From Haladaptatus salinisoli (lineage in GTDB: Archaea > Halobacteriota > Halobacteria > Halobacteriales > Haladaptataceae), in assembly GCF_020614375.1 (NCBI RefSeq), contig NZ_CP085327.1, positions 806,001-870,000 on the forward strand: a stretch of 64,000 nucleotides of DNA, in the 5' to 3' direction. This document shows positions 42,929-55,999 of the stretch, piece after piece (position 1 is the stretch's first letter; every line of letters begins with the position of its first letter). A program made the position numbers and the translations under genes. The notes under the pieces are model-generated. The model worked only from the letters and a program-made list of their open reading frames with translations, had not been told where the DNA came from and searched no databases.

Positions 42929-43068
42929 CACCGCCTTCCGTTTCGTCGCTCGTCTCCGGTGGCGTCGTCCCCCGACCTGTACGGTATTATTAAAATAAAA
43001 CGTATTTGGTAGTAACCGGATTGTTTCATAGTAAAAAATCTGATTCAACATCGTTGCCCACTTATATC

Positions 43069-43119
43069 CCCGGTTTTAGCCGCGATAATCCTTAATATAT
43101 TAAATAGTGATAAACCGGG
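43069..43119. promoter_or_regulatory. Promoter with inverted repeat before the DUF6230-like gene
   Basis: CCCGGTTT (43069-43076) and AAACCGGG (43112-43119) form an inverted repeat with 8-bp arms enclosing the AT-rich palindrome TTAATATATTAA (43092-43103). The latter is centred about 23 bases before the ATG at 43121, where a TATA box of a leaderless transcript would lie. The second arm touches the start codon. This looks like a promoter with an operator; the factor may be the HTH_10 protein encoded downstream. Confidence 0.5.
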
Positions 43120-43120
43120 T

Positions 43121-43717
43121 ATGGCAATCGATACCAGGAAGTTCGCGATAACGATGGTCGCAGCGCTCGTGCTCCAGACAGGCGTCGTCGGCGCAATCAT
43201 GACCGGCGGTGCCGCCGTCGCGGTTCCGACGGCGGGCGTCGGCGGCTTCACGGTGACGTTCGACAAGTTAGAGGGGCAAGGATTCACACAGTACGCGTCC
43301 ATCGAGAACTCGAGCGAGTGTCCGGCCTACCCGTCGGCGGTCGCGAAGATAGATAAGGGAACCATACACAACATGAAACTCTACAAGGACATCAAGATTC
43401 CCGAGGAGATGCCCGGCGGCGGGAACACGGTGAGAGTTCTCATCGCGGCGAACAAACCGGTGAAGTTCACCGGGCTGACACAGAAGTTCACCTATCTGGA
43501 AGGGAACCTCCAGATGAAGAACCAGCAGATAACCTCCGACCCGGCGAGCATGAAGAGCGCCATCTCGCTCTCGGCTCCTTCCATCGTCATCAAGGACGGG
43601 AAGATTCACGCCCAGAGCCAGTTCCTGCGGAGCATCACGCTGAAGGGAACGCACGTGCAGACCAAGGTGAACCCCGAGAGCGACACCAAGTTCCCGGCGA
43701 ATCAATGTGCGGCCTGA
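43121..43717 (+). CDS. DUF6230-like secreted protein
   Basis: A 198-residue protein with an N-terminal signal or anchor (KFAITMVAALVLQTGVVGAIMTGGAAVA) and a beta-rich mature domain. The FTVTFDKLEGQGFTQYASI segment matches the actinobacterial DUF6230 pattern (SADSLEGTGFVQY), followed by KIDKGTIHNMKLYKDIKIP and GLTQKFTYLEGNLQMKNQQI. As in Actinobacteria, the neighbour (43758) is DUF6114-like. Two cysteines flank the domain (SSECPAYP and the terminal CAA). Function unknown; association with extracellular or membrane lipid-related clusters in Streptomyces is uncertain. Confidence 0.75.
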   Translation: MAIDTRKFAITMVAALVLQTGVVGAIMTGGAAVAVPTAGVGGFTVTFDKLEGQGFTQYASIENSSECPAYPSAVAKIDKGTIHNMKLYKDIKIPEEMPGGGNTVRVLIAANKPVKFTGLTQKFTYLEGNLQMKNQQITSDPASMKSAISLSAPSIVIKDGKIHAQSQFLRSITLKGTHVQTKVNPESDTKFPANQCAA

Positions 43718-43757
43718 TGAACGATAGCTGAGAAAACCAACCGAGAGGAATCCAACG

Positions 43758-44186
43758 ATGTCCACAACGTACGGGTCACAGCTCGGGTCGTACCGCTCGC
43801 GGTTCGCGTCGTGGCGACACGACCGTCCCTTCTGGGGAGGCGTGTTCGTCCTCCTCGGCGGACTCATCATCGGCATCATCCCCGCCGAACTGGCGCTCAC
43901 CTTCGCGCTCGTCCCGAGCATGTTCATGTTCGCCGGACTGGTGTTCGCCATCTTCGTCATCCTCTGCGGGATCTTCGCGCTGCTGCGCCCGGACTTCGCG
44001 GAGTTCTTCGGGGCCGCCGCCATCCTGCTTTCCATCGCCTCCATCGTCGGGGCGCTCGGCGGTTTCGGAATCGGGATGATGTTCGGCGTGCTCGGCGGCG
44101 CGATGTGCGTCGCGTGGGAAGACCCCCGGGAAACGGAATCCCGAGAGACCGACTCGACTTCCGACGAGCAGGCGACGGTGACGTGA
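43758..44186 (+). CDS. DUF6114-like membrane protein
   Basis: A 142-residue four-helix membrane protein. It has RPFWGGVFVLLGGLIIGIIPAEL at the start, a middle helix pair and EFFGAAAILLSIASIVGALGGFGIGMMFGVLGGAMCVAWEDP at the end. That layout, RPFWGG ... GGFxxGMxxGxxGGxxxxAW, is the signature I know from actinobacterial DUF6114 proteins. A GAGAGG sequence about 10 bases before the ATG is a plausible Shine-Dalgarno. It is preceded by the DUF6230-like gene with a 40-bp gap, so they form an operon. Confidence 0.8.
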   Translation: MSTTYGSQLGSYRSRFASWRHDRPFWGGVFVLLGGLIIGIIPAELALTFALVPSMFMFAGLVFAIFVILCGIFALLRPDFAEFFGAAAILLSIASIVGALGGFGIGMMFGVLGGAMCVAWEDPRETESRETDSTSDEQATVT

Positions 44187-44376
44187 GGCTCGGCGCTCGC
44201 CGACTCGACCCGCTTTTCGTTCGAAGCACGACTCGCAAGCGCCGCCGACCCGCGAACCGTCCCGCTTCCGAACGGCAGTATCGATAAGAGAGGTTTCAGC
44301 GGTCTCAGGGCGTCTCCCGCCCGAGATTAGGAGACGTATAATAATGTACGTCTCCAAAGTTGTAGGAACACTGACG

Positions 44377-45030
44377 ATGAGATATCTCACCCTCAGGCTG
44401 ATGCTGGACGGCGACGGAATCCATCCAGTCGGCGATCTCATCGCGGGACACCCCGCCATCCAGCGGGAGGAACTCATCCACGTCAACGCCCTCTACAGCG
44501 GGGACGGTGTGCTCTTCTACCGACTTCGAGGCGACGTTGACGCGCTCGCCGAGGAACTGGACGCCCACGACTCGGTGCTCGCGTACGACATCCTCGACAG
44601 ACAGAAATCGCAGTTCCACATCTACATCTACGTCGAGTCCGGCGAACCGGCCGGGACGCTCATGCACATCGTCGAGAAGTACGCCCTGATAATCGACACG
44701 CCGCTCACGTACACCGACTCCGGCGACATCTTGGTGACGGTCGTCGGCAAGGAGGAGATGATCCAGCGGGCGTTCCGAGCGTTGCCACAGTGGATAGACA
44801 TCGAAGTCGAACAGACCGGCGATTACGCGCCCGACTCCGGCTACCTGCTCTCGCAGTTGACCGACCGACAGCACGAAGTTCTCGAAACGGCGGTCAAACT
44901 CGGCTACTATCAGATTCCGCGGCAGGTCACGCACGCGGACATCGCGGAACGACTCGAGTGCGCCCCCAGCACCGTCGACGAACACCTCCGAAAGTGCGAG
45001 CAACACCTCTTTTCGACGCTCATCGGATAG
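44377..45030 (+). CDS. HTH_10 (bacterio-opsin-activator-like) transcriptional regulator
   Basis: A 217-residue protein. The N-terminal alpha/beta region (MRYLTLRLMLDGDGIHPV ... RLRGDVDALAEEL) is followed by a C-terminal HTH_10 domain: LTDRQHEVLETAVKLGYYQIPRQVTHADIAERLECAPSTVDEHLRKCEQHL. Start at 44377 because the paralogue at 53437 begins MRYVKFVLI at the same position. No PAS/GAF sensor is attached. Located between the DUF6114-like and repeat-glycoprotein genes, it probably controls them. Confidence 0.88.
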   Translation: MRYLTLRLMLDGDGIHPVGDLIAGHPAIQREELIHVNALYSGDGVLFYRLRGDVDALAEELDAHDSVLAYDILDRQKSQFHIYIYVESGEPAGTLMHIVEKYALIIDTPLTYTDSGDILVTVVGKEEMIQRAFRALPQWIDIEVEQTGDYAPDSGYLLSQLTDRQHEVLETAVKLGYYQIPRQVTHADIAERLECAPSTVDEHLRKCEQHLFSTLIG

Positions 45031-45152
45031 TTTATCCGCGGCGCGACGTGCGACAACGCTCGTCGGCATATAAATGACCGGAAATGCACAAGGGAATTAA
45101 TTTACTGCTGAAGGTGCATGCTAGCAGTAGTCATAATTGACAGTGAAAATTC

Positions 45153-46610
45153 ATGGGGCACTCGATCACCATCGCCGTGGTACTTTGTGTCGCGTTCGCC
45201 TCGGTCGTTCCCGCGTCGGCGACGTTTGGCTCCGACGGGGTTCCGTCGGCCGCGGACCAAACCCTCACGGGCGAGCTACGGTGTTACCAGGACGTGACGT
45301 ACCGAAACGTCCGGTTTCCCGCCCACGGGCAGAGCGCGCGCGATCTGCAAGTCGAAGGGGCCGTCTCGGGATACCTCGATTCCAACGGGAGTTCGGGCGA
45401 CGCACCGATAACGATTCGAATCGCTCGGTTCCACGCGGAGAAGGTGTGTCTGGAGGCGAACAGTTCTGACGGCACGCCGGGAGTCCACCTCACGTTCAAG
45501 CGGGCGGAGTTGGAGAACGCGACCGTTCGCGGACCGAACCTCCTGTTCGAGCGGGCGACGGCGGACTCGATCAGCTTCGACGTTCCAGAGGACGTCGGTC
45601 GCCGACTCCTCTCCCGGTTCATCGGGAACGGAAGTCAGAACGGAACCGACGGACTCCCCGGTACGGGCGGCAACGCGACCGACCCGACCGAACGAGTTCC
45701 GGGCGACGTCGATAACGGGACCGGGACGCCGATTCCGAACTCGACCGACGACATCGAGAACCGAACGAGCGTTCCCGGGGATGGCGTCGAGAACACCACC
45801 GACGGCGTCACGGACGGCGTCGATAATACGACCGACGACGTGCGGGACGGCGTCAACGATGGCGTCAACGACACCACGGACGAGGTCGAAAACACCACCG
45901 GCGGCGTTACGGACGGGGTGGAAGACGGCATCAACGACACGACTGACGGGGCGAAAGACGGCGTCGAGAACACCACCGGCGGCGTCACGGACGGGGTGAA
46001 GGACACCACGGACGGCGTCCAAGACGGCGTCGAGAACACCACCGACGGCGTCGACGACACGACCGACGGAGTCAAAGACGGCGTTCAGAACACGACCGAC
46101 GGGGCGAAAGAGGGCGTCGAGAACACCACCGACGGCGTCACGGACGGGGTCAAGAGAACGGCGAGCGGGCTACGTGACGGTGTCCAAAACACTTCCGATG
46201 GCGTCCAGGACGGCGTTCAGAACACCACGGACGGTGTCGCCGACGGCGTCCAGAACACGACCGACGGAGTGAAAAACGGCGTCGGGAACACCACCGACGG
46301 CGTTACGCAGACGGCCGGCAGCGTGAAAGACGGCGTGAAGGATACGGCGGGGAGCGTCACGGACGGCCTCGGCGACGCGACCGCCACCGAGACGACGACT
46401 CCCGACACCACGACCTCCTCGGACGAGACCACCGGCGCGACGACCGCCGGGACGACGACCGACGACGACGGCATAGACCTACTCGATACGACGACGTCCA
46501 ACGCGACGGAGACGACGGGAACGAACACCACGACCGGAGAGACGGACGGGACGACCACGACCGACGACGGACTGCTGTCGACGGGCTTCGTCGGCGTCAG
46601 GGGCGCGTGA
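45153..46610 (+). CDS. Secreted glycoprotein with 11-residue (hendecad) repeats
   Basis: A 485-residue secreted protein. A signal peptide (about 1-24) is followed by a beta-rich N-terminal domain (about 35-150, two cysteines), then from about 210 to 405 around twelve 11-residue repeats of consensus DGVxNTTDGVx. Val at positions 3 and 10 gives a 7/4 hydrophobic pattern typical of hendecad helices. About 13 NxT/S sequons lie in the repeats, so this region would be heavily N-glycosylated. A Thr/Ser/Glu-rich tail (TETTTPDTTTSSDETTG) follows. No C-terminal anchor is present. The function is not known; cell-surface or matrix component is inferred. Confidence 0.85.
   Translation: MGHSITIAVVLCVAFASVVPASATFGSDGVPSAADQTLTGELRCYQDVTYRNVRFPAHGQSARDLQVEGAVSGYLDSNGSSGDAPITIRIARFHAEKVCLEANSSDGTPGVHLTFKRAELENATVRGPNLLFERATADSISFDVPEDVGRRLLSRFIGNGSQNGTDGLPGTGGNATDPTERVPGDVDNGTGTPIPNSTDDIENRTSVPGDGVENTTDGVTDGVDNTTDDVRDGVNDGVNDTTDEVENTTGGVTDGVEDGINDTTDGAKDGVENTTGGVTDGVKDTTDGVQDGVENTTDGVDDTTDGVKDGVQNTTDGAKEGVENTTDGVTDGVKRTASGLRDGVQNTSDGVQDGVQNTTDGVADGVQNTTDGVKNGVGNTTDGVTQTAGSVKDGVKDTAGSVTDGLGDATATETTTPDTTTSSDETTGATTAGTTTDDDGIDLLDTTTSNATETTGTNTTTGETDGTTTTDDGLLSTGFVGVRGA
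45781..46370 (+). repeat. In-gene tandem repeats with 33-bp basic period
   Basis: The DNA behind the hendecads repeats GACGGCGTC(g/c)AGAACACC-type units at 33-bp multiples within the reading frame. Some units are partly duplicated (22- or 66-bp offsets), as expected for expansion by slippage or unequal crossing-over. Codon-level differences between copies show that expansion is not recent for all units. Confidence 0.7.
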
Positions 46611-47875: not shown

Positions 47876-48403
47876 TCACTTCTCCATCATCTGGCCGTAG
47901 ACGACGCCCAAAACCCCGCCGTACAGCACCCAGACGAGGAGGCCGACGTCGACGTTCGGAACCGGTACCGGGACGTTCGCGACGTACCGTAACCAGACCG
48001 GCAACAGCAGCGCGTGGAAGACGACCGCGAGCGCGAGTCCGTACGCGAGTCCGAGATTGGCCGCGGTCAGCGTCAGCGCCGACCGTCGGAGGAGCGGCAC
48101 CAGGAGCTTTCGGAGGTGCTCCTGTTGGCTCGACATGGTGATAACCCGGGTGACGAACGAGTTGACCGTTCGGGAGAGAAACTCGACGAACGCGAGGGCG
48201 AACCCGGCGCTCGCGACGAGCAACACTATCCACCCGGTCGAGTAGCTAGCGCCCACGAGGCGTCCGAACTCCGTCACCCCGACGTTGCTGTTCGTCACTT
48301 GGAGCAAAATTCCGACGAGAATCGCCCCGGCGAGCGCCGCCAACGTCGCCGCGTGCGCTTCTTCCCTGGAGATGGCGGTTCGCGTCTGCAGTCGTACGGA
48401 CAT
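47876..48403 (-). CDS. Four-helix membrane protein, unknown
   Basis: A 175-residue protein with four to five hydrophobic segments: AATLAALAGAILVGILLQVT, STGWIVLLVASAGFALAFVEFL, LTAANLGLAYGLALAVVFHALLL and VGLLVWVLYGGVLGVVYGQMM. It has a basic loop SSQQEHLRKLLVPLLRR. No family recognised. It is downstream of no obvious operon partner. Confidence 0.72.
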   Translation of the reverse strand: MSVRLQTRTAISREEAHAATLAALAGAILVGILLQVTNSNVGVTEFGRLVGASYSTGWIVLLVASAGFALAFVEFLSRTVNSFVTRVITMSSQQEHLRKLLVPLLRRSALTLTAANLGLAYGLALAVVFHALLLPVWLRYVANVPVPVPNVDVGLLVWVLYGGVLGVVYGQMMEK

Positions 48404-48586: not shown

Positions 48587-50287
48587 CTACTCCGCGGCGG
48601 CTTCGTCGCCGTGTCGCTCCCTGAGTCGCTTCTTGTCGGTCTTCCCGATGGCCGTCAGCGGTATCTCCTCGACGAACTCGACCGATTCCGGTCGCGCGTG
48701 TCGCGGTATCTCGTCCGCGAGGAACTCCCGGATGTCGTCGGCCGTGAGGTCGCCGTCGTAGGCGGGGTCGGGTTCGACGTACACCTTGACGAGCTCGCTC
48801 CCCGGTCGGTCGGGGTCGGGGACGCCGACGGTCGCCGGTCGTCGCACGCCCTCGTGGCCGAACAGTATCTCGTCCACCTCCTCGGAGTACACCTTCAGTC
48901 CGGAGACGTTAATCATGTCCTTGACGCGGTCGACGACGTAGAATCGACCCTGCTCGTCGACCTTGACCACGTCCCCGGTGGACACGAACCCGTCGTCGTC
49001 GAACGGCGAGGTTTCGGCGTCGAGGTAGCCGAGCATTCGCTGGGGGCCGTTCAGGTACATCTCCCCTTCCAGTCCGTCCTCGATGGCGCGCTCCATCGGA
49101 ATCTCCTCGCCGGAGTCGATATCGACCAGTTTGACCTCGGTGTCGGGCACCGGAACGCCGATGGTCGGCCGGTCGAGACCGCCCGCGTCGTCGGGGTCGC
49201 CGCCGAGCATCATCTCGTACACGCCGCGGATGTCGAAGTGCGTGACGGGGGACATCTCCGAGAGCCCGTACCCCTGCGAGACGCCGGTGCTGCTGCGCTC
49301 GAACGACTCCTTCGTCTCGCTCGCCAGCGGTGCCGACCCGGAGATGCCGACGACGCTCGTGTCGAGTTCCTCGTCGACGATGTCCATGAACTGCGTCGGC
49401 ACGCCGAACAGCAACACCGGTTCGCGCTCGTCGATGAGGTCGACCATCGCTTTCGTGTCCCGGGGGTCGGGAGCGAGCAACACCGTGACCGGCAGATCGA
49501 GCAGGGAGTGGGCGACCGAGTAGCCGTAGGCGTGATAGATGGGAAGCGCGAGGAGCGCGGATTCGCTCCCGCGGAGCATCGTCGCCAGTTGCGACATGCT
49601 CGCCACCCCCTGTTTGGCGTTGGCGAGGACGTTGCGGTGCGAGAGCAGACACCCCTTCGGTCGCCCGGTCGTCCCGCCCGTGAACAGGATGGTGTGGACG
49701 TCCGACTCCACGTCGAACTCCACGTCCGGCGGGTTCGGTGGGGTGTCCTCGATGACGTCCACGAGCCACTCGGCGTTCGGAGCCTCGTCGTGTGCCGGGG
49801 GGTCGGCCGAGTAGTCGTCTATCTCCGTGAGCAGGAGGTGCTCGATGTCGAGTTCGTCGTACAGGTCGTAGAGGAGTTCGCTGTGCTCCGCGTTTCCGAC
49901 GAGCACCTGCGGGTCCCCCCGTTCGAGTCGGTACTTCAGGTCCGATTCGGCGTCGAGGAAGTCGTTCGGGATGTGGACGCCGCCCGCCCTCGTGATGGCG
50001 TGCTCCGTGACGATGAACTGGACGGACGTCGGCAGCACCGTCGCCACGCGGGTCCCCTTCTCGACGCCGCGCTCCCGAAGCGCGGTCGCGAGGCGTTCGA
50101 CGTGGTCGTGCAGTTCGGGGTACGGGACGGTGCGCCCCCGCTGGACGACCCCGGCGTCCGGATAGTCGGTCGCGGCCGCTTCGACGATTTCGTGCACCGG
50201 CGTCTCCGGATACGGGCGGAGCGACTCCGGAATGCCGAACTCGCGGTACTCCCGGAACCACGGTTTCCCCATCTCCGACTGTGTCAT
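48587..50287 (-). CDS. Acyl-CoA synthetase (long-chain-fatty-acid--CoA ligase type)
   Basis: A 566-residue AMP-forming ligase: phosphate loop ILFTGGTTGRPKGCLLSHRN, A5 YGLSEMSPV, A7 STGDVVKVDEQGRFYVVDR, A8 DRVKDMINVSGLKVYSEEVDE and A10 PLTAIGKTDKKRLRE. It activates fatty acids for beta-oxidation or lipid remodelling, and lies near an acyl-CoA dehydrogenase, SCP2 proteins and an SDR, which suits a lipid-catabolic block. The promoter region faces the DsbA-FNT gene. Confidence 0.9.
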   Translation of the reverse strand: MTQSEMGKPWFREYREFGIPESLRPYPETPVHEIVEAAATDYPDAGVVQRGRTVPYPELHDHVERLATALRERGVEKGTRVATVLPTSVQFIVTEHAITRAGGVHIPNDFLDAESDLKYRLERGDPQVLVGNAEHSELLYDLYDELDIEHLLLTEIDDYSADPPAHDEAPNAEWLVDVIEDTPPNPPDVEFDVESDVHTILFTGGTTGRPKGCLLSHRNVLANAKQGVASMSQLATMLRGSESALLALPIYHAYGYSVAHSLLDLPVTVLLAPDPRDTKAMVDLIDEREPVLLFGVPTQFMDIVDEELDTSVVGISGSAPLASETKESFERSSTGVSQGYGLSEMSPVTHFDIRGVYEMMLGGDPDDAGGLDRPTIGVPVPDTEVKLVDIDSGEEIPMERAIEDGLEGEMYLNGPQRMLGYLDAETSPFDDDGFVSTGDVVKVDEQGRFYVVDRVKDMINVSGLKVYSEEVDEILFGHEGVRRPATVGVPDPDRPGSELVKVYVEPDPAYDGDLTADDIREFLADEIPRHARPESVEFVEEIPLTAIGKTDKKRLRERHGDEAAAE

Positions 50288-50505
50288 ACGTTGGATTCTC
50301 TCAAGCTTCGCCTAAGTCGATACGCCCCGCATGGAAAGCCATTGAAGGCGACGCTCGTCGCTCGGCCTCGTTCGGTCGCGCACGCCGCTCTCGGCGCTTC
50401 CGTCGAACGGGCGGAATAACTAACCCCGTTCGCGGGGTACGGGTTGCACGCCGCGGGCGTCGCGGGGCGGCTCCGCGGTGCGATTACGACTCGGGGGAGT
50501 CAACC

Positions 50506-50544
50506 ATGAGTGAACAGGGGGAGAACCGGGGGGTCGAACGGTGA
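50506..50544 (+). other. 12-codon upstream ORF before DsbA-FNT gene
   Basis: ATG at 50506 reads MSEQGENRGVER followed by TGA, overlapping the GTG start of the fusion gene (50541) in another frame. Either a coupling leader or an annotation artefact of a wrong start. The reading frame is too short to be judged by codon bias. Confidence 0.3.
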
Positions 50545-52061
50545 GTAAATCCGAACTGTCGGTTCTCACCGAGCCGGTGAGCGAGCGCGACCACGTCAGG
50601 GGGCCGGTCGACGCCGCCGTGACGCTCGTCCAGTACGGGGACTTCGAGTGCCCCTCCTGCGGCGACATGTACCCCGTCCTGAAGCGGATTCGAGACCGCC
50701 TCGGCAATCAGCTTCGATTCGTCTTCCGCCACTTCCCGCTGGGACAGAGCCACCCTCACGCGCAGCAGGCCGCCGAGGCCGCCGAGGCCGCCGCGGCGCA
50801 GGGCGCGTTCTGGCGGATGCACGACCTGCTCTACGAGAACCAACGCGCGCTCGACCGCGACGACCTCGTGGGCTACGCCGCGGAGTTGGGACTCGACACG
50901 GACCGGTTCGAGCGCGAGTTGGCGGAGGGCGTCCACGAAGAGCGGATTCAGGAGGACCTGTCGAGCGGAATGCGGAGCGGCGTCAACGGAACTCCCACGT
51001 TCTTCATCAACGGCGAGCGCTACGACGGCCTGCTGGAGTTCGAACCGCTGCTGTTGGCGCTGGCGGACGCGGGCGGCATCGCCGAGATGCAGGTGTCGGT
51101 TCGCCGCGATAACCTCGAACTCCGCGACACCATCGACCGCTCGGAGCGGGGCGCTCCGGCGGCGGGGCAGGCGCTCCGCGACCTGTTCTCGGCCGACGAG
51201 ATATTCCAGCGCATCACCGCGACCGCCGACGAGGAGGTGAATCAGAGCGCCCGACTCCTGTTCTTCAACGGCCTCGCCGCGGGGTTGGTCATCACGCTGT
51301 CCTTTTTCGCGCGAGCGGTCATCGCCGCGGCCGTCCCGCGAGGCCCCACGGACCTCCTCGCCAGTTTGGCGTACCCCATCGGGTTCGTCTTCATCGTCCT
51401 CGGTCGCTCGCAGCTCTACACCGAGAACACGCTGACCCCCGTCACGCTCGTCCTGACTCGAATCGTCAGCGTTCCCATCCTCCTTCGCGTCTGGGGAATC
51501 GTGCTGTTCGCGAACGTCCTCGGGGCGGCCGTCGGCGCGTACCTGCTGGCGACGACCGGCGTCTTCGACCCCGGCGTCGGCGCGGTCGCAGACGAGTTCG
51601 GCGAGCACGCGCTCTCGGTGGAGTGGTCGGCGCTCTTCTGGAAGGGCGTGTTCGCGGGGTGGCTGGTCGCGGGAATGGTCTGGCTCACGCACGCCGCGCG
51701 GGACACCATCACGCGATTCTTCCTCGTCTACGTCATCATGTTCCTCGTCCCCGCCGGGGGACTCTTCCACTGCATCATCGGCGCGTGCGAGGTGTTCTAC
51801 CTCGTCTTCCGCGGAAGCGCGGAGCTGACGGGCGCGTTCTTCCAGTTCTTCGTCCCCGTGCTGCTCGGGAACACCGTCGGCGGCGTCGTGCTGGTGGCGC
51901 TGTTGGTGTACGGGATGACGCGCGAGCGACGGTTCCCGAACCGGAACTACCGTCAGCTCGAACTCTCGTGGTCCGAGTGGCTGTTCGGTCGCCACACCGG
52001 TCAGCCGCGAACCGTCTCGCCGAGGGACGCGCCCGCCGACTCCGAGGAGTCGACGCCGTGA
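50541..52061 (+). CDS. Fusion of DsbA-like thioredoxin domain and formate/nitrite transporter
   Basis: A 506-residue protein. Residues about 1-175 are DsbA-like: YGDFECPSCGDMY (CPSC, residues 37-40), FRHFPLGQSHPHAQQAAEAA and the cis-Pro loop GTPTFFING. Residues about 200-480 form a six-helix formate/nitrite-channel (FNT/FocA) domain, with FNGLAAGLVITLSFFARA, LFANVLGAAVGAYLL, LFWKGVFAGWLVAGMVWL and GLFHCIIGACEVFYLVF. The latter contains the channel His matching FocA HSIANM. Because no signal precedes DsbA, the thioredoxin part is probably cytoplasmic. GTG start chosen to match the beginning of the DsbA domain. Anion or sulfur-species transport is inferred. Confidence 0.85.
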   Translation: MSKSELSVLTEPVSERDHVRGPVDAAVTLVQYGDFECPSCGDMYPVLKRIRDRLGNQLRFVFRHFPLGQSHPHAQQAAEAAEAAAAQGAFWRMHDLLYENQRALDRDDLVGYAAELGLDTDRFERELAEGVHEERIQEDLSSGMRSGVNGTPTFFINGERYDGLLEFEPLLLALADAGGIAEMQVSVRRDNLELRDTIDRSERGAPAAGQALRDLFSADEIFQRITATADEEVNQSARLLFFNGLAAGLVITLSFFARAVIAAAVPRGPTDLLASLAYPIGFVFIVLGRSQLYTENTLTPVTLVLTRIVSVPILLRVWGIVLFANVLGAAVGAYLLATTGVFDPGVGAVADEFGEHALSVEWSALFWKGVFAGWLVAGMVWLTHAARDTITRFFLVYVIMFLVPAGGLFHCIIGACEVFYLVFRGSAELTGAFFQFFVPVLLGNTVGGVVLVALLVYGMTRERRFPNRNYRQLELSWSEWLFGRHTGQPRTVSPRDAPADSEESTP

Positions 52062-52078
52062 GTACGGAGACGCCGCCC

Positions 52079-52417
52079 CTACGGACGCAGATACGCGTAG
52101 CCTTCGTTTTCCAATCGCGTGACTTCGACGGCACCTTCCGGGACGGTTTCGACGCCCTCGACGAGGTCCGACTCCTCCAAGTCCATCGTGTCGAGCGTGT
52201 TGCTACACGCCTTGAACGCGACGCCCTCGTCCAACAGCGACCGCACACGCTCCTCGCCGTCTCCCCCGGCGGTGACCGACTCGATGCCCTTCGACTGGGC
52301 GACGACCGCCACGTCGTCGATGGCACCGCTCTCGTCGTTTAGGAGGTTCTCGACGATGGCGAGCGCGGTCTGCCGTTCGTCCTCGTCGCCCGAGATGAGG
52401 TGGACTACGGATTGCAT
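52079..52417 (-). CDS. DsrE-like family protein
   Basis: A 112-residue protein of the DsrE/YchN fold: VVHLISGDEDERQTALAIVENLLND, then VAVVAQSKGIESV and GVAFKACSNTLDTMDL (the last holds a Cys where DsrE-like sulfur carriers have one). The family binds sulfane sulfur or acts in redox balance. It is convergent with the DsbA-FNT gene (17 bp between stops). ATG at 52417. Confidence 0.82.
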   Translation of the reverse strand: MQSVVHLISGDEDERQTALAIVENLLNDESGAIDDVAVVAQSKGIESVTAGGDGEERVRSLLDEGVAFKACSNTLDTMDLEESDLVEGVETVPEGAVEVTRLENEGYAYLRP

Positions 52418-52593
52418 AGCTGGAGGACGGTCGCTCGAAACGCACTAAAAACTGCTGGCTGCGCCCGCGAAACCGCCGTCGCCGACCGATTCGGAACGCG
52501 GTCGAGAGGTGCCGACGGGACCCCGTTCGATATAAAGCGCCGCGCATCCGGCGAACAAGCGACTTCCGCCCGCTTTCCGACGGTACGAACGAG

Positions 52594-53370
52594 ATGGATT
52601 TCGGACTCGATGGCCGAACCGCGCTGGTCACGGGCGGCGGCGGACGAATCGGAAGCGTCGACTGCGAAACGCTCGCGGCGGAAGGGGCGGAGGTCGTCGT
52701 CCTCGACGTGGACGCGGACGCGGCGCAGTCGGTCGTCGACGACATCGAAGACGACGGCGGCGCGGCGGTCGCGGTCGAGTGCGACCTCACGGACAGGGCG
52801 GAAGTGTCGGCGACCGTCGAGGGGATACGCGACGAATTCGGCGGAATCGACGTGCTCGTCAACAACGCGGGCATGGTCGACGCGCAGGCGAAACTCGAAG
52901 ATTACGACGACGACATCTGGGACCGCGACATGGAGATCAACCTCACCGGGACGTACAACGTGACGAAGGAGGTGTTCCCGGCGATGTGCGAGCGCGAGTG
53001 GGGTCGCATCGTCACCATGAGTTCGATGGCCGGCTGGCAGGGCGGGTACGGGCAGTCGTCGTACGCCGCGACGAAGGCGGCCCTCATCGGGTTCGGAAAG
53101 ACGCTCGCGCTCGAAGGGGCCCAGCACGGCGTGACCTCTAACGTCATCGCGCCGAGCATCGTCGTCGGCGCGCTCGCGGACCTCCCGCTGGAGCAGTTGA
53201 AGGAGGTCAACGAGTACTTCGGTCGCATCGCGGAGGCGACGCCGATGCGCCAACTCGGCCGGGAGGAGGACGTGGCCAACCTCGTCGCCTACCTCGCCAG
53301 CGAGCAGGCGAGCTACGTCACCGGACAGGTGGTCGGCGTCACCGGCGGCGTCGACCTCTTCTCGTTCTGA
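52594..53370 (+). CDS. SDR-family 3-hydroxyacyl/3-oxoacyl reductase-like enzyme
   Basis: A 258-residue classical SDR: VTGGGGRIGSVDCETLAAEG, acidic NAD-preferring end LDVD, VLVNNAGMVD, catalytic SSMAGWQGGYGQSSYAATKAAL (Ser, Tyr-x-x-x-Lys) and NVIAPSIVVGALADLPLEQL. FabG-like. It precedes the HTH_10 regulator, SCP2 and acyl-CoA dehydrogenase genes on the same strand, so oxidation of a 3-hydroxyacyl-CoA is likely, though an NAD-linked alcohol oxidation is also possible. Confidence 0.88.
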   Translation: MDFGLDGRTALVTGGGGRIGSVDCETLAAEGAEVVVLDVDADAAQSVVDDIEDDGGAAVAVECDLTDRAEVSATVEGIRDEFGGIDVLVNNAGMVDAQAKLEDYDDDIWDRDMEINLTGTYNVTKEVFPAMCEREWGRIVTMSSMAGWQGGYGQSSYAATKAALIGFGKTLALEGAQHGVTSNVIAPSIVVGALADLPLEQLKEVNEYFGRIAEATPMRQLGREEDVANLVAYLASEQASYVTGQVVGVTGGVDLFSF

Positions 53371-53408
53371 AGCCGCGACGAAACTGTCTGGATATAACCG
53401 AAAAAACA

Positions 53409-53420
53409 TTTAAGATTATT
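53409..53420 (+). promoter_or_regulatory. TATA-box region of second HTH_10 gene
   Basis: TTTAAGATTATT about 25 bases before the ATG at 53437, within an AT-rich stretch, fits a haloarchaeal TATA box for an essentially leaderless transcript. Confidence 0.5.
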
Positions 53421-53436
53421 CTTCTCATCTATTGAT

Positions 53437-54090
53437 ATGCGGTACGTCAAGTTCGTCCTCATCCCCGACGACGGTGGGCTCCACCCGGTCGACAAAGCGT
53501 TCGCGTCGGAGCCGTCGCTCACGCGGCAGTTCATCCACGAGATATCGCTGCTCAACGACGGGACGGCGATCACCATCTATCAGCTGTCCGGCGACGCCGA
53601 CGTGGTCGAGGACATCCTCGCCGAACACGACGAGGTGGTGATGTCGCACGTCTCGCAGCCGCGTGACAGCGTCCACGTCTACGTCCAGTTCGAACCGAAC
53701 GAGGTCATCGAGACGCTGCTGGAGATTCCGCGCGAGTACGAACTCATCGTCGACACGCCGCTGGAGTTCACCGACCGCGGCGGCCTCCGACTCACGGTCG
53801 TCGGCGAGGAGGAGATGGTTCGACGGGCCATCCCCGAACTTCCCGCGTCGCTCCGCCCGAAGTTGGAGCAGACCGGGGACTACAAACCGCAGAACGAGCG
53901 GCTCTTTTCCGTGCTCACCGAGCGCCAACAGGAGATACTGAAGACGGCGGTGGAACTGGGCTACTACTCGGTTCCGCGTCGCGTGACCCACGAGGACCTT
54001 GCCAGCGAACTCGACTGCTCCCCGAGCAACGTGGGCGAACTCCTCCGCAAGGTCGAATCGACCATCCTCACCGAGGTAACGCCCCGCTGA
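53437..54090 (+). CDS. HTH_10 (bacterio-opsin-activator-like) transcriptional regulator, paralogue of 44377 gene
   Basis: A 217-residue regulator of exactly the same length and layout as the one at 44377: MRYVKFVLIPDDGGLHPVDKA N-terminal alpha/beta region, QFEPNEVIETLLEI, and HTH_10 domain LTERQQEILKTAVELGYYSVPRRVTHEDLASELDCSPSNVGELLRKVESTIL. No sensor domain. Sits between an SDR gene and SCP2/acyl-CoA dehydrogenase genes, probably regulating them. Confidence 0.9.
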   Translation: MRYVKFVLIPDDGGLHPVDKAFASEPSLTRQFIHEISLLNDGTAITIYQLSGDADVVEDILAEHDEVVMSHVSQPRDSVHVYVQFEPNEVIETLLEIPREYELIVDTPLEFTDRGGLRLTVVGEEEMVRRAIPELPASLRPKLEQTGDYKPQNERLFSVLTERQQEILKTAVELGYYSVPRRVTHEDLASELDCSPSNVGELLRKVESTILTEVTPR

Positions 54091-54233
54091 CCGGGGTCGC
54101 GTCGGGGGCTGACGGGTATAAAAACCCCCGTGTATGCGACGAAGTAAACCCTTCGGCGTTTCGTCCGAACCATCGGGTGAAGACGGCCCGGAGCACCCGA
54201 GACGGAGTTTCGGGTCGCACAGTGGTGACACCC

Positions 54234-54797
54234 ATGACCGACGATCTGATACAACGCATCGAAGCCGCGACGGAAAAGTCAGACGAAGAACTCGAACGCG
54301 AACTGCCGGAACTGCTCGACCAACTGGACGGGCGGGAGCGGGAACTCGTCCGGGAACACCCGGTGACGTTCGGTCGCGTCGTCGACCGGATGAAGACGCT
54401 CGACACCGCGGAGTTCGTCTCGGAGAATCCGGAGACGGCGGACCAGTTCCAGGAGCTCCTCTGGGCCGGCGTCGAGGTGCTCGTCGAGGAACAGCCGGAG
54501 GTGCAAGAACAGATAAACGACGACATCACCGTGAACTTCTCGGCGACCGACTGCCAGATGGACGGCCACCTCGAGGTGGACAAGGGCGCGCAGACGATGC
54601 GCGGCGGGGCCGGAACGCTGGACGACCCGATGCTCGAAATCACCGGCCCGGCCGACACGCTCGTCGGACTGGTCACGGGCAACGTCGACCCGATACAGGG
54701 GTTCATGCAACAGAAGTACGAGATGGACGGACCGGTCAACAAGGGAACGCGCCTCGCGCCGGTCATCAACTCCGTCTCCGATAACATCCCGAGCTAA
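54234..54797 (+). CDS. SCP2 sterol-carrier-like lipid-binding protein
   Basis: A 187-residue acidic protein: N-terminal helices to about 95, then the SCP2-type sheet with VNFSATDCQMDGHLEVDKGAQTMRGGAG and the C-terminal LEITGPADTLVGLVTGNVDPIQGFMQQKYEMDGP, matching the G-N/K-x-x-x-x-x-GKL-type region of SCP2 domains. Binds hydrophobic acyl ligands. Its TAA overlaps the ATG of the acyl-CoA dehydrogenase, so the two are coupled. Confidence 0.83.
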   Translation: MTDDLIQRIEAATEKSDEELERELPELLDQLDGRERELVREHPVTFGRVVDRMKTLDTAEFVSENPETADQFQELLWAGVEVLVEEQPEVQEQINDDITVNFSATDCQMDGHLEVDKGAQTMRGGAGTLDDPMLEITGPADTLVGLVTGNVDPIQGFMQQKYEMDGPVNKGTRLAPVINSVSDNIPS

Positions 54798-55999
54798 TGC
54801 AGTTGACAGACGAGCAGCGGGCGTTCCGCGAGGAACTGCGCGAGTACTTGGACGAGAACGTCGAACCGGTCGTCGACGAGCAGGACAAGGAGCCGTTCAC
54901 GAGGGCGGAACTGCTGGAGTACGTCGACGACCTGCGCGAACTCGGCGTCGGGTTCGACCCCGAGACCGCGGAGTCGTACTTCGGCGACCTGCGGCGCTAC
55001 ACCATCTGCTCCGAGGAGATGAGCCGCGTCTGGCCGAGCCTCAACGTCGCGCTGAACATGTCGTTTCCGTCGCTGTTCGCCCAGTTCGCGAGCGAGACCA
55101 CGCGGGACGCGATGCGTCCGAAGCTGAACGCGGGCGAGTGCATCGGCTGTCTCGCGGTGACCGAACCGGGGGGCGGAAGCGACACCGCCCGCCCGCGGAC
55201 GACGGCGCGAAAGGAGGGCGACGAGTTCGTCATAAACGGGGAGAAGACGTGGGTCGGAAACGCGCAGATCGCCGACGTGGCGCTCGTCGTCGCCCACGAC
55301 GAGAGCACCGATTCGCAGGACATGTTCCTCGTCGACCAGGAGACCGCGCCGTTCGAGACGGAGGGAATTAGCAAGCTGGGCTGGAAGGCGGTGCCGAACG
55401 GTCACATCTACCTGGACGACGTGCGCGTCCCGGTGGACAACCGCCTCTCCATGATGTTCGAGAACGCCATCATGGAGGGCAAGGACATCTCGGACATCGT
55501 TCCGTTCCCCGAGAGCGTCACGCAGTTGTTCCTCGACCAGAAGCCGCTCAACGCGACGTTCTCGTTCATGCGAACCGGCATGGCGTTCATGGCGGTGGGC
55601 ATCATGCAGGCGGCGTTCGACGAGTCGCTGGCCTACGCGAAAGAACGCGAGACGTTCGGCGAGCCCATCGGGCAACACCAGCTGATTCAGGAGAAGCTCT
55701 ACGACATCAAGTGCGCCCTCGAAACGTCGCGGTGTCTCGCCCACCGCGTCGTCGAGCTGCTCGAAGAGGGTAGTCCGGACGCGCGCATGATGTCGTCGCT
55801 CGCCAAGGGGTACGCCTGCGAGAAGTCGGTCGACGCGACCTCCGACGCCATCCAGATTCACGGCGGGGAGGGGCTGAAGACCGAGAATCGCCTCGAACGC
55901 TACTACCGCGACGCGCGGACGATGCCCATTCCCGACGGGACGACCGAGATTCAGAAACTCATCGTCGGAAAGGAGCTGACGGGGATGGCCGCCTACTGA
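54797..55999 (+). CDS. Acyl-CoA dehydrogenase with Asp at usual Glu position
   Basis: A 400-residue flavoprotein of the ACAD family: MQLTDEQRAFREELREYLDENV, CLAVTEPGGGSDTARPRTTARK (FAD/substrate loop) and C-terminal QIHGGEGLKTENRLERYYRDARTMPIPDGTTEIQKLIVGKELTG. In most ACADs the catalytic Glu is in YEGT; here the same place reads PDGT, so the base may be Asp or elsewhere. Oxidises an acyl-CoA at C2-C3 or is a related reductase. ATG overlaps the SCP2 stop by 1 base. Confidence 0.87.
   Translation: MQLTDEQRAFREELREYLDENVEPVVDEQDKEPFTRAELLEYVDDLRELGVGFDPETAESYFGDLRRYTICSEEMSRVWPSLNVALNMSFPSLFAQFASETTRDAMRPKLNAGECIGCLAVTEPGGGSDTARPRTTARKEGDEFVINGEKTWVGNAQIADVALVVAHDESTDSQDMFLVDQETAPFETEGISKLGWKAVPNGHIYLDDVRVPVDNRLSMMFENAIMEGKDISDIVPFPESVTQLFLDQKPLNATFSFMRTGMAFMAVGIMQAAFDESLAYAKERETFGEPIGQHQLIQEKLYDIKCALETSRCLAHRVVELLEEGSPDARMMSSLAKGYACEKSVDATSDAIQIHGGEGLKTENRLERYYRDARTMPIPDGTTEIQKLIVGKELTGMAAY

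Follow-up and report, generated by a model that had tools for sequence, protein, structure and literature searches.

DUF6230 and DUF6114 are protein families that are widespread in antibiotic-producing actinobacteria and have no agreed function. In Streptomyces they form a gene pair for a 'cholesterol esterase' and a membrane protein, and a 2007 paper by Xiang et al. is reported to describe small cholesterol esterases of actinomycetes as a new family. Archaeal surface layers are known to contain hendecad coiled-coil stalks, of the tetrabrachion type. In the literature that we searched, which excluded preprints and included few subscription papers, DUF6230 is mentioned only in passing and DUF6114 not at all. 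Here we analyze a stretch of 64,000 nucleotides (nt) from the haloarchaeon Haladaptatus salinisoli (NZ_CP085327.1, positions 806,001 to 870,000; hereafter the window), in which a DUF6230-DUF6114 pair is followed by genes for a transcription regulator and a secreted repeat protein (Table 1). The pair itself was already known, if uncharacterized; the haloarchaeal system around it is supported as real by our observations, because the set recurs in many haloarchaea and is sometimes fused into one protein. With confidence that stands at about the midpoint, we interpret the locus as a conserved cell-surface module, in which a membrane platform would carry a glycosylated coiled-coil rod.

The DUF6230-DUF6114 pair and its fusions

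An earlier reading of the window from its letters alone (the sequence-only reading) had called the four genes, likened the pair to that of actinobacteria and taken the adjacency across domains to imply a physical or functional partnership. The four open reading frames were recovered where it had placed them, with coding-like codon composition, and both family assignments proved significant: the DUF6230 protein scores 48.3 bits against PF19741 (curated cut-off 27.5) and the DUF6114 protein 96.9 bits against PF19609 (cut-off 27.9), covering positions 1-106 of the 106 in that profile. The DUF6230 gene lies directly upstream of the DUF6114 gene on the same strand, 40 base pairs (bp) away. Its product has a positively charged N-terminus, a single hydrophobic segment (a signal anchor or signal peptide) and a beta-rich ectodomain, whose cysteines are C67 and C196, while the DUF6114 alignment is marked by the motif WRxxRPFWGG...GG..GM..G..GG...AW. 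The source genome encodes one copy of each; among named genomes, that of Haladaptatus halobius is closest, its DUF6114 being 92% identical.

DUF6114 is present in 48 of 394 haloarchaeal genomes, 46 of them over the cut-off, and in 16 of 86 genera. By its Pfam model DUF6230 is present in 26 genomes, with purpose-built profiles detecting additional DUF6230 genes adjoining DUF6114. Across 197 genomes of the whole phylum the cut-off was passed in the window's order only; in the class of Actinokineospora 40 of 198 genomes have DUF6114. At all 30 actinobacterial loci examined (L113-L142) the gene directly preceding DUF6114, in the same orientation, is DUF6230. The same holds for 25 of the 30 haloarchaeal loci with the best DUF6114 matches, so that the neighborhood is indeed kept in related haloarchaea and across domains. 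The other five represent a single fusion paralogue, about 680 residues long, from genus g32; the genomes of this genus have several further DUF6114 copies each. In a count of 45 haloarchaeal DUF6114 genes, 36 have an upstream same-strand DUF6230 gene, at a median gap of 6 bp. When 80 DUF6114 sequences were placed in a tree, which is unrooted and short, the actinobacterial members occupied one side of a branch with support of 100/99, a branching compatible with a single old exchange, in either direction, between Archaea and Actinobacteria. Searches of a plasmid collection gave few relatives, and those of a viral contig collection gave none. As separate observations, one locus has six DUF6230 genes in tandem followed by one DUF6114 gene (L079:1780-9126), and in families f3 and f8 (L061, L062, L065, L071-L073, L088, L096) the pair sits at the str operon, between the genes for ribosomal proteins S12/S7 and those for DUF5781/EF-2.

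Several architectures link the pair to further domains. DUF6114 is fused to a DUF6230-like domain in L015, L017 and L018. DUF6230 occurs together with PKD domains in L061, is split in L067 (7188-8852) by an insertion bearing two PA14 matches, and in the small-genome haloarchaea of family f11 forms the N-terminus of giants some 3,340 residues long that continue with GEVED and CARDB domains (L077:20-10048 and L078:583-10608). To judge from these domain partners, such architectures are extracellular and consistent with a location of DUF6230 outside the cell. Many long actinobacterial DUF6114 proteins (L113-L142) have a Pro/Thr/acidic linker, an extra transmembrane (TM) segment and, at the C-terminus, a conserved domain rich in beta structure; a Pfam scan of one example returned nothing beyond DUF6114. 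Profile searches of the PDB gave only chance antibody matches for DUF6230 and only weak tetraspan matches for DUF6114 (CD20, FceRI beta and sarcospan, E 0.1-3).

A likely fifth component, overlooked by the sequence-only reading like the common promoter motif and the Streptomyces 'cholesterol esterase' link discussed below, is a four-TM protein (TM4), which had no match in a Pfam scan; its gene lies beyond the interval that the sequence-only reading had marked (43121-46610). Proteins of genus g32 (L063, L089, L097) carry three tandem copies of this family ahead of DUF6114 in one chain, and genes of the family adjoin the pair in families f3, f4 and f8. Strong matches (E<1e-30) were found in 32 genomes, all of them DUF6114-positive by a reading of the result tables. 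Outside g32, most genomes have the gene no more than about 16 kb from the pair; in G157, G355 and genus g26 it is far away.

The repeat protein as a member of the system

Behind its signal peptide, the repeat protein has a folded N-terminal domain (repA, about 150 residues) and a repeat tail. A repA profile matched in 11 of the 394 haloarchaeal genomes, in every case adjoining DUF6230 (11/11; Fisher p about 1e-14), and both cysteines of the DUF6230 ectodomain are invariant within the repA-type subset. At other f3, f4 and f8 loci a second type of N-terminal domain, repB, takes its place; in 21 genomes searched, repB is found as one copy each in 12, always beside the pair, and is missing from the other 9. 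At locus L062 a single chain of 839 residues combines DUF6114, further hydrophobic segments, repB and repeats. The repeat protein therefore belongs to the system, as its N-terminal domains co-occur exclusively with the pair and one of them, repB, is fused to DUF6114; this fusion, found in one genome, supports a probably physical partnership between DUF6114 and the repeat-protein domain. The partnership and the recurring repeat glycoprotein foreseen by the sequence-only reading have thus both gained support. More broadly, of 339 genes lying no more than three genes from the pair, 24 encode sequon-rich proteins, as does 1 of 323 genes farther away.

The tail of the window protein shows residue autocorrelation maxima at 11, 22 and 33, and its hydrophobic power peaks at 98.5 degrees (98.2 being the value for an 11/3 helix) with a strength of 27.8, where shuffled sequences have a 95% limit of 6.8; it thus has both the 11-residue periodicity and the hydrophobic stripe of a hendecad stalk. 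It also carries 18 N-glycosylation sequons. In most family members, too, the autocorrelation has a period of 11 residues and hydrophobicity peaks at 98-100 degrees, well over shuffled controls, with sequons about 110-220 degrees off the hydrophobic stripe, and near 190-200 degrees in the Haladaptatus proteins. This periodicity fits a glycosylated hendecad rod, although helix formation and glycosylation are predictions here and the Gly/Thr richness of the tail calls for caution.

Other affinities of the repeat protein were considered. Homology of repA or repB to DUF6230 was rejected, at a profile-level probability below 2%, as were matches of the repeat tail to phage tape measure and Zorya proteins, which reflect repeat and coil composition. 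The ZorA matches are weak and confined to the repeat tail, and the MotA/ExbB-type membrane domain of ZorA is missing.

A candidate regulator, a common promoter motif and neighboring genes

The regulator gene at 44344 encodes an HVO_0513_N domain (132.6 bits) and a C-terminal HTH_10 domain (62.5 bits), both exceeding their cut-offs. Regulators of this helix-turn-helix type lie within four genes of the pair at 20 of 42 haloarchaeal loci, as against only eight HVO_0513_N proteins in the source genome, two of them in the window; a recurring regulator, as the sequence-only reading expected, is therefore seen. A tree places regulators from beside repA-type loci of f3 and f4 in the subfamily of the 44344 protein. 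In the window, and likewise in L080, L070, L101 and L075, the DUF6230 gene and the repeat gene are both preceded by a motif, TWTA-N(2-5)-CCGG-NN-[AT]T. Over all loci it lies upstream of 13 of 71 DUF6230 or repeat genes and of 3 of 535 other genes (Fisher p 1e-10), a p-value that overstates the association because the pattern was chosen post hoc, after some of the sequences had been seen. Scans for sigma-70 promoters and terminators are uninformative for archaea.

Table 1. Coordinates of the genes, domain and promoter elements of the locus within the window
Feature	Coordinates	Strand	Evidence or remark
DUF6230 protein, 198 aa (amino acids)	43121..43717	+	match to PF19741 (E 1.7e-12) above the Pfam cut-off
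DUF6114 protein, 142 aa, four predicted TM helices	43758..44186	+	Pfam PF19609, E 1.4e-27
HVO_0513_N + HTH_10 transcription regulator, 228 aa, candidate module regulator	44344..45030	+	PF24278 E 9e-39, PF04967 E 3.2e-17
Secreted hendecad repeat glycoprotein (predicted), 485 aa: signal peptide, repA domain, 11-residue repeats bearing N-x-T/S sequons	45153..46610	+	
repA N-terminal domain of the repeat protein, about residues 23-165	45219..45644	+	without Pfam match
TM4, four-TM protein, likely fifth component	47876..48403	-	family absent from Pfam
DUF6230 promoter region	43063..43107	+	motif ACTTATATCCCCGGTTTTAG about 58 nt 5' of ATG; AT-rich TATA-like element nearer the start
Repeat-protein promoter motif	45068..45115	+	CATATAAATGACCGGAAATGCACAAGGGAATTAAT, about 84 nt 5' of ATG

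Further genes were noted around the pair. A small TM protein without a Pfam match (L074:8234-8704 and relatives) is encoded one or two genes from it in 12 genomes of three families. Several f4 genomes (e.g. L093:7859-8797) have an adjoining gene for a methyltransferase resembling mycolic acid cyclopropane synthetases. In the window itself, 50541-52061 encodes a formate/nitrite transporter domain with a thioredoxin/DsbA-like domain fused in front.

Competing interpretations and comparison with known systems

In the proposed module, DUF6230, with its membrane tether and beta-rich ectodomain, and the four-TM DUF6114 would form a membrane platform, with or without TM4, on which the secreted repeat protein would dock via its repA or repB domain. 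The 11-residue repeats would then build a helical rod, either amphipathic or coiled-coil, that extends away from the cell and is N-glycosylated on its outward face, while the HVO_0513-type regulator would control the DUF6230 and rod genes through the common motif. Such a module could serve as an envelope or adhesive coat. The sequence-only reading had suggested that the pair exports, anchors or assembles a surface polymer or glycoprotein; an anchoring role is what the fusions point to. As to export or assembly of a polymer, these proteins revealed no domain for transport and none of a glycosyltransferase or polymerase. More tentatively than the module itself, we envisage an undescribed class of surface appendages or coats with a core common to Archaea and Actinobacteria, in which a DUF6230/DUF6114(/TM4) base would display secreted modules that can replace one another: two types of glycosylated hendecad rod, arms with PKD or PA14 domains, and the 3,300-residue GEVED/CARDB giants.

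A number of observations weigh against the module. Actinobacterial loci consist of the bare pair without a rod protein, and several haloarchaeal loci of g32 lack a separate rod gene. The tails of some family members are short or devoid of periodicity (L075, L087). Homology between repA and repB is not established (32.8% probability in a profile comparison), and the C-terminal beta domain of actinobacterial DUF6114 proteins resembles either of them weakly at best (hhalign probability up to 44%, the value for repB, which is suggestive only). The repB loci of f4 carry a different regulator subfamily, that of the window's second regulator at 53437, and the f3/f8 loci in the str operon have no such regulator. 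AlphaFold yielded no usable structure for the window DUF6230 or for the Actinocorallia DUF6230 ectodomain (predicted local distance difference test scores of 42 and 53), and a fold search of the PDB with the latter model gave no match.

The strongest competitor, though we think it rather unlikely, is lipid handling. Under this reading DUF6230, as a member of the 'cholesterol esterase' family, would hydrolyze lipid esters or bind lipids at the surface, with DUF6114 as its partner in the membrane; the hendecad protein would bind lipids much as apolipoproteins do, and the whole set would supply the cell with fatty acids or other hydrophobic compounds. The gene order at Streptomyces-type loci is PfkA-x-AckA-Pyk-x-DUF6114-DUF6230-thioredoxin/TPR-TetR, and since pyk2 is SCO5423 in this order, SCO5420 would be the DUF6230 gene of S. 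coelicolor. SCO5420 is annotated as a cholesterol esterase and goes up almost 37-fold on Tween (PMC7494193), although its equation with DUF6230 is by gene order and not by sequence. Also in favor are genes of lipid metabolism near the pair: the window encodes an acyl-CoA ligase, a short-chain dehydrogenase/reductase, an SCP2-like protein and an acyl-CoA dehydrogenase, along with an HVO_0513-type regulator, at 48587-55999, and much the same set directly flanks the pair in several f4 genomes (L066, L068, L074, L099), while an acyl-CoA dehydrogenase gene lies two genes away from the f11 giants. However, at f3/f8 the pair lies in the ribosomal operon without lipid genes, and the PKD, PA14 and GEVED fusions indicate a structural role. 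The repeat tail does have apolipophorin matches, but these stay under the cut-off, and the identical tail also matches tail tape measures and ZorA. Furthermore, among 82 DUF6230 sequences the highest share of His in any column is 31% in Actinobacteria and 38% in haloarchaea; without a conserved histidine they contain no classical serine-hydrolase triad (Ser-His-Asp/Glu). Given the lack of both this residue and of lipid genes at f3/f8, we rank the surface platform first and lipid handling second; the two are not mutually exclusive.

Less probable still is a small autonomous envelope complex of the pair, with a mechanical or permeability role and tetraspan-like, in both domains, to which the repeat protein and regulator would be lineage-specific additions without contact. 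It would account for the bare pairs of Actinobacteria, for the many g32 pairs without a rod gene and for the variation of regulators between lineages, but the exclusive co-occurrence of repA and repB with the pair and the DUF6114-repB fusion are hard to explain without contact. That regulator and repeat protein are ordinary neighbors, beside the pair by chance in this genus, is highly improbable: haloarchaea in general often encode HTH_10 regulators and secreted proteins rich in sequons, but a similar arrangement recurs in three families, HVO_0513-type genes are few in the source genome, sequon-rich genes concentrate near the pair, and for the repeat protein the invariable placement of repA beside DUF6230 already refutes chance.

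Returning to the surface module, its archaeal fusions and partner proteins link the pair to the cell surface, and specific experiments are feasible in genetically tractable haloarchaea. The archaeal data also challenge or refine the Streptomyces 'cholesterol esterase' label, because the archaeal members look structural and have no conserved catalytic histidine.

Among known systems, the actinobacterial pair is like that of the window in gene order, strand and short gaps, in the N-terminal TM segment and ectodomain of DUF6230 and the four TM helices of DUF6114, and in passing both Pfam cut-offs. It differs in that haloarchaeal DUF6114 falls outside the strongly supported actinobacterial clade, and haloarchaeal loci add a separate, predicted glycosylated hendecad protein, an HTH_10 regulator and TM4, none of which was recognized at actinobacterial loci. 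With the tetrabrachion-type stalk, compared by description, the window protein shares the features of a secreted archaeal glycoprotein of 11-residue helical periodicity; unlike that stalk it has the repA domain and the association with DUF6230/DUF6114, and no C-terminal anchor was seen in it. An 11-residue amphipathic periodicity is also common to the tail and to apolipoprotein and apolipophorin III (PF01442, PF07464), whose profiles the tail matches at 28.6 bits (cut-off 90) and 35.0 bits (cut-off 36.3), respectively, both below the cut-off. The tail differs in being acidic, rich in Thr, Asn and Gly, and sequon-bearing. Finally, the window regulator has both domains of the HVO_0513/HTH_10 (Bat-like) haloarchaeal regulators and is nothing unusual as a protein; what is new about it is its placement beside a surface module.

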